A DNA stretch of 64,000 nucleotides. It comes from Streptomyces sp. ICBB 8177 (lineage in GTDB: Bacteria; Actinomycetota; Actinomycetes; Streptomycetales; Streptomycetaceae). The position numbers and the translations under genes were made by a program. The stretch lies in assembly GCF_003144095.1 (NCBI RefSeq), contig NZ_NSKH01000023.1, positions 779,611 through 843,610 of the forward strand, in the 5' to 3' direction. The notes below the pieces were generated by a model. The model made no database searches. It had not been told where the DNA came from and saw only the letters and a list, made by a program, of their open reading frames with translations. Shown piece by piece: positions 59,457-64,000 of the stretch (positions are counted from its first letter, which is position 1; each line of letters starts with the position of its first letter).

Positions 59457-62393
59457 ATGCGACTGCGCCCCCGCACCATTCGCACCCAGCTCCTCGTCCT
59501 GCTGACCGTCCCGATGGTCTCGCTGTCCGCCCTGTGGGCGTACAGCTCGTACACCACCGTGCGCGGCGCGCTCGCCCTCACCCGGGTCGGCGCCACCTTC
59601 CGCTACTACGGCATCCCCACCGACCGGTTGACGCTCGCCCTGCAGAACGAGCGGCGGGCCGCCGTCCAGTACGACGCGTCGCGCGGCGACCGGGGGAGCG
59701 GGCCTGGCGGAAGCGGCGAGGCCGGCGCCGAGGGCTCGGACTACGCCGCGCTCGTCGCGTCCGAACGGACCACCGACGCGCGTCTCGCGGCGCTGCGCGA
59801 CCACGTCACCCGGAACGACTGCCGGGGCGGTCTCACCACCGCGCAACGTGCCCGTATGGCCGCGGTACTGACCGCCGCGCGTCAACTCCCCTCCCTGCGC
59901 GCGATGGTGCGGGACCACGACACCAACTGGTCTGCGGTACTGGGCCGGTACTCGGCCGTCATCGACCCCGGCTTCCGGCTGCGCGGCGCGCTGTCCGACC
60001 TCCAGACCGGCGCGGTCGCCCGCAGGGGGGCGGTCGTCCTTCAACTCGCCCGCGCCCGCGAACTGCTGTCCCGCGAAGACGCGATGGTGACCGGTGCCAG
60101 GGCCGCGGGCGGTATGACGGACGCGCAGTACCGGGACTTCATCGGCATCATCGACGGCCGCAAGCTCCTCTACGACATCTACGCGCCCGAACTCCCCGCC
60201 GCCGACGCCGCCCAGCTGGCCGCCTTCGAGAACGGCGCCGCCGGGCGCGGGCTCGCCTCGCTCGAAGAGGCGGCCCGGGCGAGCGCGGCCGCCGACGTGG
60301 ACAGGCAGTTGCCGGAAGCGGCCTGGCGGCCCACCGCGGACGCGGCTCTGCGCCGGCTGGGCTCCATCGACGTCTCCGCGTCCCGCTCCATCGGCGGGCA
60401 GGCGCACGAGACGGGCATGCGGGTCCTGCTCAAGGCGGCCGGACTGAGCCTCGCGGGACTGCTCGCGGTCGTCGCCTCGCTGATCGTCTCCCTGCGCATC
60501 AGCCGCCGCGTCACCCTTCGGCTGACCGAACTGCGCGATGCGGCGGAAGAGTTGTCGCAACGACGCCTCCCGGATCTGCTGCGCAGGCTGCGCGAGGGCC
60601 AGTCGGCGGAGCCGGTCGTACCGGTCGTACCGGTCGTACCGGTCGGCTCGGGGGAGCCGGAGACCGCCCGCGCTCCGGGCGGAGGCCACGTCCCGCCTTC
60701 TACAGCGGCCTTGCGGTTCGATGACGACGAGATAGGCCAGGTGGCGCGGGCGTTCAACGTCGCGGAGTGCGCGGCCGTGCGGGCGACGGTGGAACAGGCC
60801 CGGCTGCGCCGTGGCGTCGCGGCCGTCTTCACCACGCTCGCGCGACGCGGACAGGTCCTGCTGCACCGGCAGTTGGCGCTGCTGGACGCGATGGAACGCC
60901 GTACCGAGAACGCGGACGACCTGGCCGACCTCTTCCGGCTCGACCACATGACCAACCGGATGCGCCGCCAGGCCGAGGGGCTGCTCATCCTCTCCGGCAA
61001 CACCCCCGGCCGCGCCTGGAACCGTCCGGTGCGCATGGCGGAGGTGGTGCGGTCCGCGGCCGGCGAGGTCGAGGGCTTTCAGCGGATCGTGGTGCGACGC
61101 GTGCCCCGTGTCACGCTGTCCGGCGGCGCGGTGGCCGATGTCGTGCAACTGCTGGCGGAGTTGCTGGAGAACGCGACGTCCTTCTCGCCCCCGGAGCGCG
61201 AGGTCGTGGTGGAGGCCCGTTGGGTGGGCGGAGCCGCGGACGGGCCCATCGGCCAGGGCGGGAAGGGCGGGGGCGGGAGCGGGGGCGCCGCCTTCCTGGT
61301 CACCGTCGCCGACCGCGGTCTGGGCATGAGCGCGGAACGCCTCACGGAGGTCAACGCCGCCCTGCGCGAGGCGTTGGCCCTGCCCGGTGACGGTGTCGCA
61401 GGGGGAGTGGACCTGCCCGAGTCCGATCGCCTCGGTCTGTACATCGTGGGACGGCTGGCGGCGCGGCAGGGTGTGCGCGTGACGTTGCGCTCGGCGCGGG
61501 GCGGTGGCACGACCGCGCAAGTCCTTCTTCCCGGCGCGCTGTTGCTCCGTACGGAGGAGGGCGCGCCCGGGGGCGACGAGGGCGAGGAGGTGGCGGCTCC
61601 GGTGCGCAGGCGGCGCATGCCCGCGGGGGCGGTCGCGACGGGGGCGCCTGCGGGGGCAGGGGCGGAGGCGGGGGCGGGCGGCTCCGGTGCGGCACGCGGC
61701 GCCGACGGGCCGGTGCCGCCGCGGAGGACGGGCGGCGCACCGCGGCCCAGCGTTCCGGCGGTGGTCACGACGGCGGCGGGCTTACCCCGGCGGGTGCCCG
61801 GGCATGAGGCGGCGCGGGACGTCGTCCGGTCCGCCGGAAGCGCCGCCGTCGAGGCGGGAACGGCATCCGGGGGCGGGGTGGCGTCGGGTGGCGCGGCGGG
61901 CGGCGTGAATGCTGCGGTCCCACCGGACGAAGGGGAACGTTCACCCGAGTCCGCCCGTTCCACTGTGGCAGCCTACGCACAGGGGTTGGCGAGGGGACGC
62001 GCGCGATCGGGTGTGACGCGGGAGCCCGTGACGACGCTCGCACCGGGCTTCCCCCGCGGCCCACGAGGAGAGGCGCACCAGGGCCCCGACCAGGCCGCAC
62101 AGGTGCGACGGACACGACGAACAGCGATGGAGCCGGAAGCGGCACGAGAAGCCTCAGGACCACAGGAGCCGACAGGACCGGTAGCACCATCAGGACCGGC
62201 TGGAACAGCAGGATCGGTTGGCACGTCAGAACCGGTTGGAACAGCAGGACCAGCGCGACCAACGGGGCGAGCGGTGCGGCGGGAAGCGCCGGGACCGCCT
62301 GAACCACCAGCACGACACGACCAGCGAGAACCGGAAGAACCGGAAGCAGCAGTGGTACGGAACGCGGCAAAGGAAGACGGGGGACCACGATGA
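59457..62393 (+). CDS. cvnA: Conservon sensor histidine kinase-like protein with nitrate-sensing domain
   Basis: A 978-residue membrane protein. An N-terminal transmembrane helix (about 10-30) precedes an extracytoplasmic NIT domain (about 45-320, LALQNERRAAVQYDA), a second helix (about 330-350), HAMP linker, and a histidine-kinase dimerisation and ATPase region (about 430-720: RRGQVLLHRQLALLDAMERR, LLAELLENATSFSPPE N-box, GLGMSAERL). The last 240 residues are disordered Ala/Gly/Pro/Glu. A 9-bp repeat (60612-60644) gives VVPVVPVVPV. It overlaps cvnB by ATGA. CvnA proteins signal to small G-protein partners. Confidence 0.9.
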   Translation: MRLRPRTIRTQLLVLLTVPMVSLSALWAYSSYTTVRGALALTRVGATFRYYGIPTDRLTLALQNERRAAVQYDASRGDRGSGPGGSGEAGAEGSDYAALVASERTTDARLAALRDHVTRNDCRGGLTTAQRARMAAVLTAARQLPSLRAMVRDHDTNWSAVLGRYSAVIDPGFRLRGALSDLQTGAVARRGAVVLQLARARELLSREDAMVTGARAAGGMTDAQYRDFIGIIDGRKLLYDIYAPELPAADAAQLAAFENGAAGRGLASLEEAARASAAADVDRQLPEAAWRPTADAALRRLGSIDVSASRSIGGQAHETGMRVLLKAAGLSLAGLLAVVASLIVSLRISRRVTLRLTELRDAAEELSQRRLPDLLRRLREGQSAEPVVPVVPVVPVGSGEPETARAPGGGHVPPSTAALRFDDDEIGQVARAFNVAECAAVRATVEQARLRRGVAAVFTTLARRGQVLLHRQLALLDAMERRTENADDLADLFRLDHMTNRMRRQAEGLLILSGNTPGRAWNRPVRMAEVVRSAAGEVEGFQRIVVRRVPRVTLSGGAVADVVQLLAELLENATSFSPPEREVVVEARWVGGAADGPIGQGGKGGGGSGGAAFLVTVADRGLGMSAERLTEVNAALREALALPGDGVAGGVDLPESDRLGLYIVGRLAARQGVRVTLRSARGGGTTAQVLLPGALLLRTEEGAPGGDEGEEVAAPVRRRRMPAGAVATGAPAGAGAEAGAGGSGAARGADGPVPPRRTGGAPRPSVPAVVTTAAGLPRRVPGHEAARDVVRSAGSAAVEAGTASGGGVASGGAAGGVNAAVPPDEGERSPESARSTVAAYAQGLARGRARSGVTREPVTTLAPGFPRGPRGEAHQGPDQAAQVRRTRRTAMEPEAAREASGPQEPTGPVAPSGPAGTAGSVGTSEPVGTAGPARPTGRAVRREAPGPPEPPARHDQREPEEPEAAVVRNAAKEDGGPR

Positions 62394-62962
62394 CCAGCGG
62401 AGCCACCACACCCGGCGAGCACGGCATGCCGAGGAGGCCGACCGGGCACGGCCGTACGCAGGAGCCCGGGTGGCCGGACGCGTCCGGCGCGGCGCGCGGA
62501 CCGCAGGCCCCGGGTGCACCGGGCGCCCAGGGGGAGGACGGCGGACTCGACTGGCTGCTCGACGACATGGCGGACCGCATCGAACAGGTCAAGCACGCGC
62601 TGATCCTGTCCAACGACGGCCTGGTCACCGGCGCCAGCCGGGACCTGCGCGGTGCCGACGCGGAACACCTCGCCGCGATATCGTCCGGCTTCCACAGCCT
62701 GGCCAAGGGCGCCGGGCGGCACTTCCGCGCGGGCGAGGTCCGCCAGACGATGGTCGAGTTCGACGCCGGATTCCTCTTCGTGACGTCGGCGGGCGACGGC
62801 AGTTGCCTGTCGGTGCTGACCGGTGAGGGTACGGATGTCGGCCAGATCGCGTACGAGATGACGCTCCTGGTCAACCGCGTGGGCGAGCACCTCGGGGTCG
62901 CTCCCCGCACCGAGGACGGCGTCGTCCCCCAGACCGAGGACGGCGCCGCGACAGGAACATGA
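62390..62962 (+). CDS. cvnB: Roadblock/LC7-domain conservon protein
   Basis: A 190-residue protein; after a low-complexity leader (about 1-50, longer than usual) the Roadblock domain spans about 52-170: GGLDWLLDDMADRIEQVKHALILSNDGLVTG and YEMTLLVNRVGEHLG. Roadblock proteins regulate small GTPases. ATG 62390 overlaps cvnA by 4 bp, and its stop overlaps the start of a cvnC remnant (ATGA). Confidence 0.92.
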   Translation: MTSGATTPGEHGMPRRPTGHGRTQEPGWPDASGAARGPQAPGAPGAQGEDGGLDWLLDDMADRIEQVKHALILSNDGLVTGASRDLRGADAEHLAAISSGFHSLAKGAGRHFRAGEVRQTMVEFDAGFLFVTSAGDGSCLSVLTGEGTDVGQIAYEMTLLVNRVGEHLGVAPRTEDGVVPQTEDGAATGT

Positions 62963-63120
62963 GCCGCGCGCCGGACGGTTCGGGCCCGCTGTGGTACGAC
63001 GACGGGGCGGGCTCCATGGTCCGCCCGTACACCGTCATCCGCGGCCGGACCACTTCGGCACCCGGCACCCCGAGGATCGACCTGCTCGCGGTGTTCATGA
63101 GCGCTCCGGAGTGTCCCCGA
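62959..63120 (+). pseudogene. cvnC: Truncated DUF742 (cvnC) remnant
   Basis: The first about 53 codons encode PLWYDDGAGSMVRPYTVI followed by RGRTT and IDLLAVFMSA, the N-terminal part of DUF742 conservon proteins. The expected winged-helix-like C-terminal half does not follow. The frame stays open but then reads through two TTA codons (63133, 63178), a codon rare in Streptomyces genes, and into a region with a promoter and ribosome site for the next gene. The remnant is followed by no GTPase (cvnD). Alternatively a short functional protein ends near here by an unseen shift. Confidence 0.6.
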
Positions 63121-63216
63121 AGCTTCCCAGAGTTATCCACAGGCCTGACGCGGTGTCGGCCCCTTCGCCTACAGTCGTTACAGAAAGTGATCGACCAGAA
63201 GCGAAGGGGCATCATC
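63121..63216 (+). promoter_or_regulatory. DUF6397 gene control region with DnaA-box-like sequence
   Basis: TTATCCACA (63133-63141) equals the E. coli DnaA-box consensus. CTGACG (63145-63150) and TACAGT (63170-63175) form a plausible promoter, and AAGGGG (63202-63207) is the ribosome site for ATG 63217. Confidence 0.6.
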
Positions 63217-64000
63217 ATGAGCACGCGAATGGACGCGCGGAACCGAGACCGCTCAGGCTCAGACCGTCACCGTCCCGGCCCGGTGCGCGACGGCACGGGC
63301 CCGGCCCGCAGCGCCGTGAGCCCGGCCCGCAGCGCCGTGAGCCCGGCCAGGAGCCGGAGCGGGCCGCCTCGGCGGCGAACCGGCGCCCTCGGAAACCGAG
63401 GTCCGGAACCCGGCCCGGGTGAGCTGCTGGACCCGTCCGTGGCGAGGGCCGAACTGTGCCTGGACGCCAAGGAGTTCGAGCTCGCCGTCGAGCTGGGGGA
63501 GGTGCGGACCGCCGTCGTGGACCCGGGCGTCCCACGGCGCCGCCCGGTGCCGAGGCGCGAGGTCGACCGCCTGGTCGCCGAACACGGCTTCCCGGACGCG
63601 CTGCGTGAACGGTTGCACCTGGTCGGGGCGGTGACCGGCGCGGAGCTGCTGGGCATCACCCGCGGCCGGTTCGCCTGCCTGGCCAGAGCCGGGTGCTTCC
63701 GTCCGGCCCGCTGGTACGTCAACCGCTACCGGGCGACCGTCTGGCTCTACCTGGCCTCCGACGTACTGGGATTCGCCGAGGAGCACGACGACTGGCTCAT
63801 CGGGAGACTCCCGAAGGCGGTGCGCGAGAAGGCCCGGAGCGGGGTGGACCTGCGGGCCCAGGGGTGGCGGGCCCGCCGGGTCGAGCAGCTCGTGGCCGCG
63901 GCCGTCGACGCCTGGGACGAGGCCGCCGCCTGGGCGGCCCTGCTCGCAGCGGACGACCGCGCGGGCCTGATCGCCGACGCGGACGAACGCCGGGCCCTGA
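63217..64000 (+). CDS. DUF6397-like protein, C-terminus beyond window
   Basis: The frame runs from ATG 63217 to the end of the window (261 codons, incomplete). A low-complexity, basic leader (about 1-70) contains the tandem heptad PARSAVS-type repeat. From about residue 75 the sequence (ELCLDAKEFELAVELGEVRTAVVD, REVDRLVAEHGFPDALRERLHLVGAVTG, GITRGRFACLARAGCFRPARWYVNRYRATVWLYLASDV) matches, as I recall it, the helix-turn-helix-like DUF6397 proteins of Streptomyces. Function unknown; DNA binding is plausible from the helical pattern. Confidence 0.7.
   Translation, partial: MSTRMDARNRDRSGSDRHRPGPVRDGTGPARSAVSPARSAVSPARSRSGPPRRRTGALGNRGPEPGPGELLDPSVARAELCLDAKEFELAVELGEVRTAVVDPGVPRRRPVPRREVDRLVAEHGFPDALRERLHLVGAVTGAELLGITRGRFACLARAGCFRPARWYVNRYRATVWLYLASDVLGFAEEHDDWLIGRLPKAVREKARSGVDLRAQGWRARRVEQLVAAAVDAWDEAAAWAALLAADDRAGLIADADERRAL

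Follow-up and report, generated by a model that had tools for sequence, protein, structure and literature searches.

Organization of the locus

The locus lies near the end of the window, the whole 64,000-nucleotide stretch of Streptomyces sp. ICBB 8177 DNA that was analyzed, with all of its genes on the forward strand. The first gene, cvnA' (59457–62393), is a single open reading frame of 978 aa that codes for a membrane sensor-kinase-like protein with a NIT sensing domain (profile match, E = 1.8e-30), a HATPase_c domain (E = 1.3e-07), and, in a long C-terminal tail, the LPxR motif described in PMC4316618 (GLPRRV here, spotted by eye in the translation). It is followed by cvnB' (62390–62962), which codes for a 190-aa roadblock/MglB-type protein that matches Robl_LC7 (E = 6.6e-25) and has a relative in the PDB, CvnB5 (3leq, E = 1.6e-32). 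A remnant of cvnC (cvnC', 62959–63092) has a start codon that overlaps the cvnB' stop and is homologous to intact CvnC over about 45 codons (WYDDxAGxMVRPYTVxRGRT). Between this remnant and a conserved block (63130–63216, forward strand; putative promoter or leader) is a 37-bp deletion junction (63093–63129) without homology to intact relatives. The last gene starts at 63217, runs to the window edge at 64000 and on to ~64560 in window numbering, and codes for a 447-aa DUF6397 protein (PF19934, E = 2.6e-62, 210.9 bits against a curated cut-off of 25). No cvnD was found between cvnB' and the DUF6397 gene in the window, and NCBIfam had no family for CvnA, CvnB, CvnC, or the S. parmotrematis copy of DUF6397. 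An initial annotation of this DNA had described cvnA and cvnB as complete, a DUF6397-like gene as the next gene, and cvnD as missing, and these three points hold.

The arrangement resembles conservons, the actinobacterial G protein systems encoded by cvnA–D (PMC13343842, PMC8510531), in its NIT and HATPase cvnA, its roadblock cvnB, its overlapping start and stop codons, and a cvnC remnant in the expected place. It differs from them in that cvnC is destroyed, cvnD (the Ras-like GTPase gene, third after cvnA) is absent, and a DUF6397 gene follows in place of the GTPase gene, cvnE (P450), or cvnF (GAF).

Truncation of cvnC' and the sequence upstream of DUF6397

The truncation of cvnC' is real. 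Similarity to DUF742 is restricted to residues 17–58 of the open reading frame after cvnB' (profile positions 3–44 of 114; at E = 1e-3 the match falls short of the curated cut-off), and a complete DUF742 protein (CvnC) is absent. Homology to cvnC stops near 63092, and the conserved block 5' of DUF6397 resumes at 63130. Comparison of the locus with intact relatives (L036, L038, and L116), a check that the initial annotation had proposed, placed the breakpoints between 63093 and 63129 and bore out its claim that the rest of cvnC, the 3' part, is missing. Approximately 310 bp are gone relative to Streptantibioticus rubrisoli, including the entire helix-turn-helix half, and the two anchors that flank the 37-bp junction in the window are ~348 bp apart in L036. 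The sister species S. parmotrematis (L035) shares both the short remnant and the junction. Its copy contains two in-frame stops and no longer encodes the VRPY motif, so the cvnC' remnant is decaying, and it is unconstrained; the first 20 codons have a dN/dS of 1.6 between the two species, a value that reflects only 12 changes. Instead of an identical and conserved short cvnC, which the initial annotation had named as contrary evidence, the sister species thus carries a remnant that is short but more decayed. An independent internal deletion or frameshift in cvnC' was identified in A. oryziradicis (L041). A search of PDB sequences with intact CvnC returned no match, and the candidate interpretation of DUF6397 as a divergent CvnC was rejected (profile comparison probability 1%).

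The block upstream of DUF6397 holds two in-frame TTA codons (63133 and 63178), the first of which opens the DnaA-box-like element TTATCCACA (63133–63141, forward strand). This element occurs 5' of DUF6397 in 77 of 80 named loci and is followed after 27 nt by a -10-like CTAnnnT site (CTACAGT, 63169–63175, forward strand); the spacing is the same in 60 of the 78 sequences that have the box. Cross-species comparison indicates that both TTA triplets are inside sequence conserved as DNA and not as codons. Control by bldA through the two TTA codons was therefore rejected, since the non-coding DNA that contains them is conserved, one falling in TTATCCACA and the other near the -10-like site. The initial annotation had read the TTA codons together with a promoter after the remnant. 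The codons are present and a putative promoter of DUF6397 is backed by conservation across species, but the codons are not coding and a sigma-70 consensus scan of 62900–63300 found no promoter. Nor is TTATCCACA unique to DUF6397, given that the 12-mer GTTATCCACAGG occurs 19 times across the organism's genome, against 0 for its reversed control, and that a comparable arrangement is seen at no fewer than one further site, L128.

The assembly is a draft of 27 contigs, and a sequencing or assembly error could have produced the short cvnC or broken its frame; the independent genome of S. parmotrematis shares the remnant and the junction, so the probability of such an error is negligible. A true fusion, in which translation runs from the N-terminal part of CvnC in frame into DUF6397, takes its support from the remnant frame itself. 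The initial annotation had ended cvnC after about 50 codons, and while homology does cover only ~45 codons, no stop codon ends the remnant: from the ATG at 62959 the frame continues uninterrupted through DUF6397 and codes for 533 aa, and this start overlaps the cvnB' stop as it does in intact conservons. We nevertheless rejected the fusion as very improbable, because the sister copy has its two stops in the fusion frame and the intervening DNA, directly 5' of DUF6397, shows the conservation of a non-coding sequence and includes TTATCCACA and the -10-like site.

Distribution and ancestry of the DUF6397-linked lineage

DUF6397 is present in 75 of 150 sampled genomes of the family. The locus survey covered 80 named loci with DUF6397, 78 of which have CvnB nearby; the two others are L060 and L101. 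Between CvnB' and DUF6397, cvnC occurs in five of these 78 loci and cvnD in none. Relatives with a full cvnC at the locus also lack cvnD there, which indicates that the absence of cvnD is older and common to the lineage. The missing cvnD is, on this comparative evidence, not part of the cvnC' deletion, contrary to the implication of the initial annotation that both were lost in one event. Architectures range from A'B'C'-DUF6397 through ABCD-B'-DUF6397 to B'-DUF6397 alone, with the window intermediate, and both cvnA' and cvnC' are missing beside cvnB' in most loci. The chromosomal site is shared, with an upstream methyltransferase (64 of 82 loci), thioesterase (62 of 82), and helicase (68 of 82). 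In a tree of 83 of the 134 CvnB rows, with most of L070–L111 left out, all 51 DUF6397-adjacent CvnBs form one clade (100/97), and the window is nested among cvnC'-bearing rows. A tree of concatenated B' and DUF6397 sequences from 81 loci (the 78 named loci with CvnB, two further genomes, and the organism's own locus) agrees (8-row set, SH-aLRT 97); cvnC was scored as absent in L041 for this tree, where only part of it remains.

Loss of the GTPase gene has precedents. Wuichet and Sogaard-Andersen (PMC4316618) describe, in part of their work, patchy MglB homologs flanked by conservon genes where the GTPase gene was lost, as well as adjacent duplicated conservons, one having lost its GTPase gene. 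Those passages make no mention of a DUF6397 neighbor, a single CvnB clade, or cvnC erosion, all of which were found here.

The DUF6397 protein is predicted to carry a BldC/MerR-like winged helix, from which DNA binding may be inferred. Residues 61–119 of its structure model (pLDDT 90.5) superpose on BldC with Z-scores of 6.0 (2.4 Å, 54 residues) and 5.8 (1.6 Å), although a Z-score near 6 may reflect only a common arrangement, and the HTH_17 profile has an E value of 0.09 against the protein. Compared with BldC/MerR-type proteins, DUF6397 has several times their length and additional helical parts. It produced no match in a PDB sequence search, and the likeness may not reflect homology. Foldseek returned no match to the model at E ≤ 0.001, and a literature search found no text containing the word DUF6397.

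Constraint on cvnA' and cvnB' and the question of a GTPase

Comparison with S. parmotrematis shows that cvnA' and cvnB' are still under purifying selection, comparable to or slightly weaker than that on intact conservons. CvnB' is 94.5% identical between the two species (dN/dS 0.135), cvnA' has a dN/dS of 0.36–0.41 (0.36 over residues 1–720), and neither gene has frame breaks in either species. Baseline values from two intact conservons in this one species pair, from which all estimates derive, are 0.32/0.22 for A, 0.05/0 for B, 0.24/0.09 for C, and 0.165/0 for D.

The initial annotation had offered two readings of the module, broken or served by a GTPase from another conservon, and each survives in part. 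A module dying as a whole, with cvnC lost first and cvnA' and cvnB' drifting toward loss as in most Streptomyces, which lack cvnA' and cvnC', is unlikely. Somewhat weaker constraint than in the baselines would allow the entire module to decay slowly, the low-complexity tail at the C-terminus of cvnA' differs greatly in length, and most loci have already lost cvnA' and cvnC' beside cvnB'. What is broken here, however, is cvnC'; the low cvnB' dN/dS, the unbroken frames, and retention of the cvnB'-DUF6397 pair in most relatives argue against general decay. A somewhat stronger alternative, still improbable on balance, is that CvnA' and CvnB' feed a GTPase in trans, with CvnB' an extra GTPase-activating protein for a CvnD elsewhere and DUF6397 a mere neighbor. 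The most plausible partner is the CvnD-bearing conservon at C17:700–704 kb, whose CvnB is the closest paralog of CvnB' in the genome (68.5% identity, 127 aa) and its sister in the tree (98/97). CvnB' could still act on the GTPase of another conservon because it retains most residues of GTPase-coupled CvnBs, including most conserved positions, and 39 of 78 loci have a cvnD of their own upstream of cvnB'. Yet cvnB' stays beside DUF6397 with no upstream cvnC or cvnD in 36 of 78 loci within the fetched flank (some flanks are short), and the partner conservon is ~140 kb from the window locus. A search of the genome for an unpaired cvnD, suggested in the initial annotation, identified none: the seven CvnD rows represent six places, one being split by a run of N, and all six adjoin a cvnC; at C17:703511 a gene whose translation was recognized by eye as a family-3-like glycosidase stands between the CvnD and its cvnC. 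A borrowed, unpaired GTPase is thus disfavored, and cross-talk with a paired CvnD is possible.

Interpretation

We interpret the locus as a conservon that has been partly eroded and belongs to a distinct DUF6397-tied lineage without its own GTPase gene, with a probability of roughly 0.72 that applies mainly to its evolution and anatomy. In its fuller layout, this lineage has cvnA'-cvnB'-cvnC'-DUF6397. CvnC is regarded as a nucleotide-exchange factor (or helix-turn-helix regulator) working on CvnD, and it would be expected to be dispensable where there is no cognate CvnD; it was also independently damaged in A. oryziradicis. In the common ancestor with S. parmotrematis, one deletion of ~310 bp probably removed cvnC' from codon ~46 to past its stop and left a useless remnant, by chance in frame with the conserved DUF6397 leader. 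Selection maintains CvnA' and CvnB' here, and CvnB' and DUF6397 almost everywhere.

For the signaling itself, we infer a route from the NIT-domain kinase CvnA' to the roadblock protein CvnB' and on to DUF6397, in which CvnB' would act on or with DUF6397, DUF6397 would bind DNA, and no outside GTPase would take part. Its predicted BldC/MerR-like winged helix is the reason that DUF6397 could be the output of a GTPase-less module. DUF6397 would be expressed from its own conserved putative promoter, so co-regulation with cvnB' is not required. The CvnB'-DUF6397 step taken alone is tentative, with the odds somewhat against it. Slightly more speculative is a GTPase-free conservon branch widespread in Streptomycetaceae, in which CvnB', with or without a sensor kinase, would signal directly to a dedicated DNA-binding DUF6397 and the cvnC/cvnD switch would have been repeatedly discarded.

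The route from conservons to gene expression is poorly understood, and CvnC has been proposed as either a helix-turn-helix regulator or a nucleotide-exchange factor. A lineage without the GTPase, in which CvnC has been lost repeatedly and the roadblock protein is kept next to a predicted DNA-binding protein, amounts to a natural experiment that asks which components are required, and two sister species catch the loss of cvnC' half-way. CvnB' and DUF6397 form a testable pair. Should the GTPase-free branch exist, the output of some conservons would be directly transcriptional.

Conservon locus and deletion in cvnC'

The own genome of the window is 6.3 Mb, in which the window occupies C17:779611–843610. 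The genes cvnA (59457–62393, plus strand, 978 aa) and cvnB (62390–62962, plus strand, 190 aa) are complete, and an ATG at 62959 overlaps the cvnB stop, the arrangement of a normal conservon. The DUF742 match that follows is confined to profile positions 3–44 of 114 (Pfam), and DUF6397 comes next (E = 2.6e-62). The initial annotation had cvnC ending after ~50 codons; there is no stop, and the frame from 62959 runs on into DUF6397 as a joint open frame of 533 aa. That the rest of cvnC is missing was borne out by comparison with relatives at the same locus. Similarity to their intact cvnC extends to ~63092 and returns from ~63130, placing the deletion between these points. The two anchors are 348 bp apart in Streptantibioticus rubrisoli versus 37 in the window, so ~310 bp has been lost relative to that species. 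The remnant spans about the first 45 residues of CvnC, and the helix-turn-helix core occupies residues 63–131 in the predicted structure of an intact copy (mean pLDDT 75.8). The junction is common to the window and Streptantibioticus parmotrematis (the apparent identity of the single congener that turned up in the searched genomes), in which the remnant carries two in-frame stops and the VRPY motif is gone.

Values of dN/dS were calculated for one species pair, the window species and its single close relative S. parmotrematis, and are 0.135 for cvnB', 0.36 for cvnA' (residues 1–720), and 0.26 for the DUF6397 domain. The remnant has 1.6 over its first 20 codons (12 changes, imprecise) and 0.67 across all 84 codons, conserved DNA block included. 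Two intact conservons in the same pair gave 0.32 and 0.22 (A), 0.05 and 0 (B), 0.24 and 0.09 (C), and 0.165 and 0 (D). The cvnC' remnant is a decaying pseudogene, and cvnA' and cvnB' are still constrained, slightly less than in intact systems. A Gly/Pro/Ala low-complexity tail of CvnA' (62160–62360) is mostly absent in S. parmotrematis.

The DUF6397-linked lineage

Gene order was compared in the best-scoring 80 of 391 confirmed DUF6397 loci, a set in which near relatives are over-represented and contig ends truncate some loci. A CvnB gene lies directly upstream of DUF6397 in 78 of these 80. Between the two, cvnD occurs in none of the 78 and cvnC in five (L036, L038, L039, L040, and L041); cvnD is found farther upstream in 39. 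In the CvnB tree, all 51 DUF6397-adjacent rows form one clade (100/97), separate from the CvnBs of upstream conservons, and the window and S. parmotrematis group with cvnC-bearing Streptantibioticus rows. A concatenated CvnB'+DUF6397 tree is concordant. Recurring chromosomal neighbors are a helicase (68/82 loci), a methyltransferase (64/82), and a thioesterase (62/82). We found no mention of DUF6397 in the literature searched; conservons with a lost GTPase gene and orphan roadblock proteins have been published (PMC4316618).

Several architectures occupy this site. A'B'C'-DUF6397 is found in S. rubrisoli (L036), L038, L116, L039 (whose cvnC carries an insert), and L117 (~4.4 kb from cvnC to DUF6397). 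ABCD-A'B'C'-DUF6397 is seen in Actinacidiphila glaucinigra (L040, where part of it falls beyond the flank) and in A. oryziradicis (L041, where an internal deletion disrupts cvnC'). The window and S. parmotrematis (L035) have A'B'(remnant)-DUF6397, many Streptomyces have ABCD-B'-DUF6397, and B'-DUF6397 also occurs. The tree requires at least three state changes for cvnC' and at least two for cvnA', counts that alone do not give direction. The broken cvnC pieces that survive in the window and L041 show that the change was a loss in these two.

The A. oryziradicis break (L041, 6579–6830) is independent; its reading frame terminates within the helix-turn-helix, the usual C terminus (VISGLRAL) persists in another frame, and cvnA' and the first cvnB also appear frame-broken. 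The frame-intact CvnC of S. silvisoli (L039, 5700–6494) has a ~130-residue Gly/Ala-rich insert between its N-terminal and helix-turn-helix parts. In the S. violaceusniger/hygroscopicus group (L051, L052, L057, L058, L059, L063, and L092), an extra divergent roadblock gene lies ~1–2.3 kb upstream of cvnB'.

DNA upstream of DUF6397 and the encoded protein

The ~85 bp ahead of the DUF6397 start are conserved above most of the remnant, with 23–27 of 30 positions per block shared by the window and S. parmotrematis; blocks 63013 to 63121 keep 11–18, and the first 55 bp of the remnant keep 22–26. This block contains GAGTTATCCACAGG. The two TTA codons that the initial annotation took as a sign of truncation are present, but they lie inside this block. 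A −10-like CTAnnnT follows 27 nt after a TTRTCCACA element, which we take to be DnaA-box-like. Across the best-scoring 80 of the 391 loci (1.13 Mb, counting both strands), the element occurs 80 times in total, and 77 loci have it upstream of DUF6397. Of 78 box-bearing sequences, window counted, 60 keep the 27-nt spacing. A box specific to DUF6397 was ruled out by 19 occurrences of the 12-mer GTTATCCACAGG in the own genome (0 for the reversed control), in the window at 63133–63175 and at 18 further places. Together with the −10-like site it resembles a promoter arrangement that recurs, perhaps with a link to DnaA. One copy (L128), ahead of a MerR-like start (named by eye), is paired with a −10-like site at comparable spacing.

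For DUF6397, AlphaFold was run on the S. parmotrematis protein (87% identity across the domain) with 44 sequences and gave a model of mean pLDDT 90.5. Residues 61–119 superpose on BldC (Z 6.0, rmsd 2.4, 54 residues; Z 5.8, rmsd 1.6, 51 residues), with Z ~6 in the range the tool calls common. Most of the remaining top matches are winged helices of the MerR, excisionase, and terminase types, and Foldseek returned no significant match. Given winged-helix matches with Z near 6 and nothing significant from Foldseek, DNA binding by DUF6397 is predicted as likely but unproven.

Proposed working of the module

The own genome has seven complete DUF742 genes, eight roadblock genes above cut-off, and six CvnD places. 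The suggestion that the module uses a GTPase from another conservon survives only in part: all six CvnD places adjoin a DUF742 gene and no spare GTPase was found in this genome, so the donor would be a paired CvnD engaged in cross-talk. This is the main rival reading, and it draws some support from the finding that CvnB' is most closely related to the CvnB encoded by the C17:700 kb conservon, whose locus carries cvnD. In that conservon (C17:700–704 kb; L115, 6301–10114), a glycosidase-like gene of ~700 codons (named by eye) splits cvnC from cvnD. Besides the one in the window, a second conservon, at C11:290 kb (L003), shows no cvnD in the 1.5 kb around cvnC, and its S. parmotrematis counterpart (C3:125 kb, L120) was labelled roadblock-then-cvnC with no cvnD found. 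A roadblock gene at C17:531785–532051 has no DUF742 gene nearby.

CvnC was earlier proposed to be a helix-turn-helix regulator (PMC8510531). The CvnB homolog MfpD is described as a GTPase-activating protein and the CvnC homolog MfpC as a likely exchange factor (PMC13343842). With no cognate GTPase, an exchange factor would be without substrate, and the repeated damage to cvnC' would fit a factor so deprived. What is retained is CvnB' beside DUF6397 and, in the window, also CvnA'. Signaling at this locus may follow a shortened route, from CvnA' through CvnB' to DUF6397.
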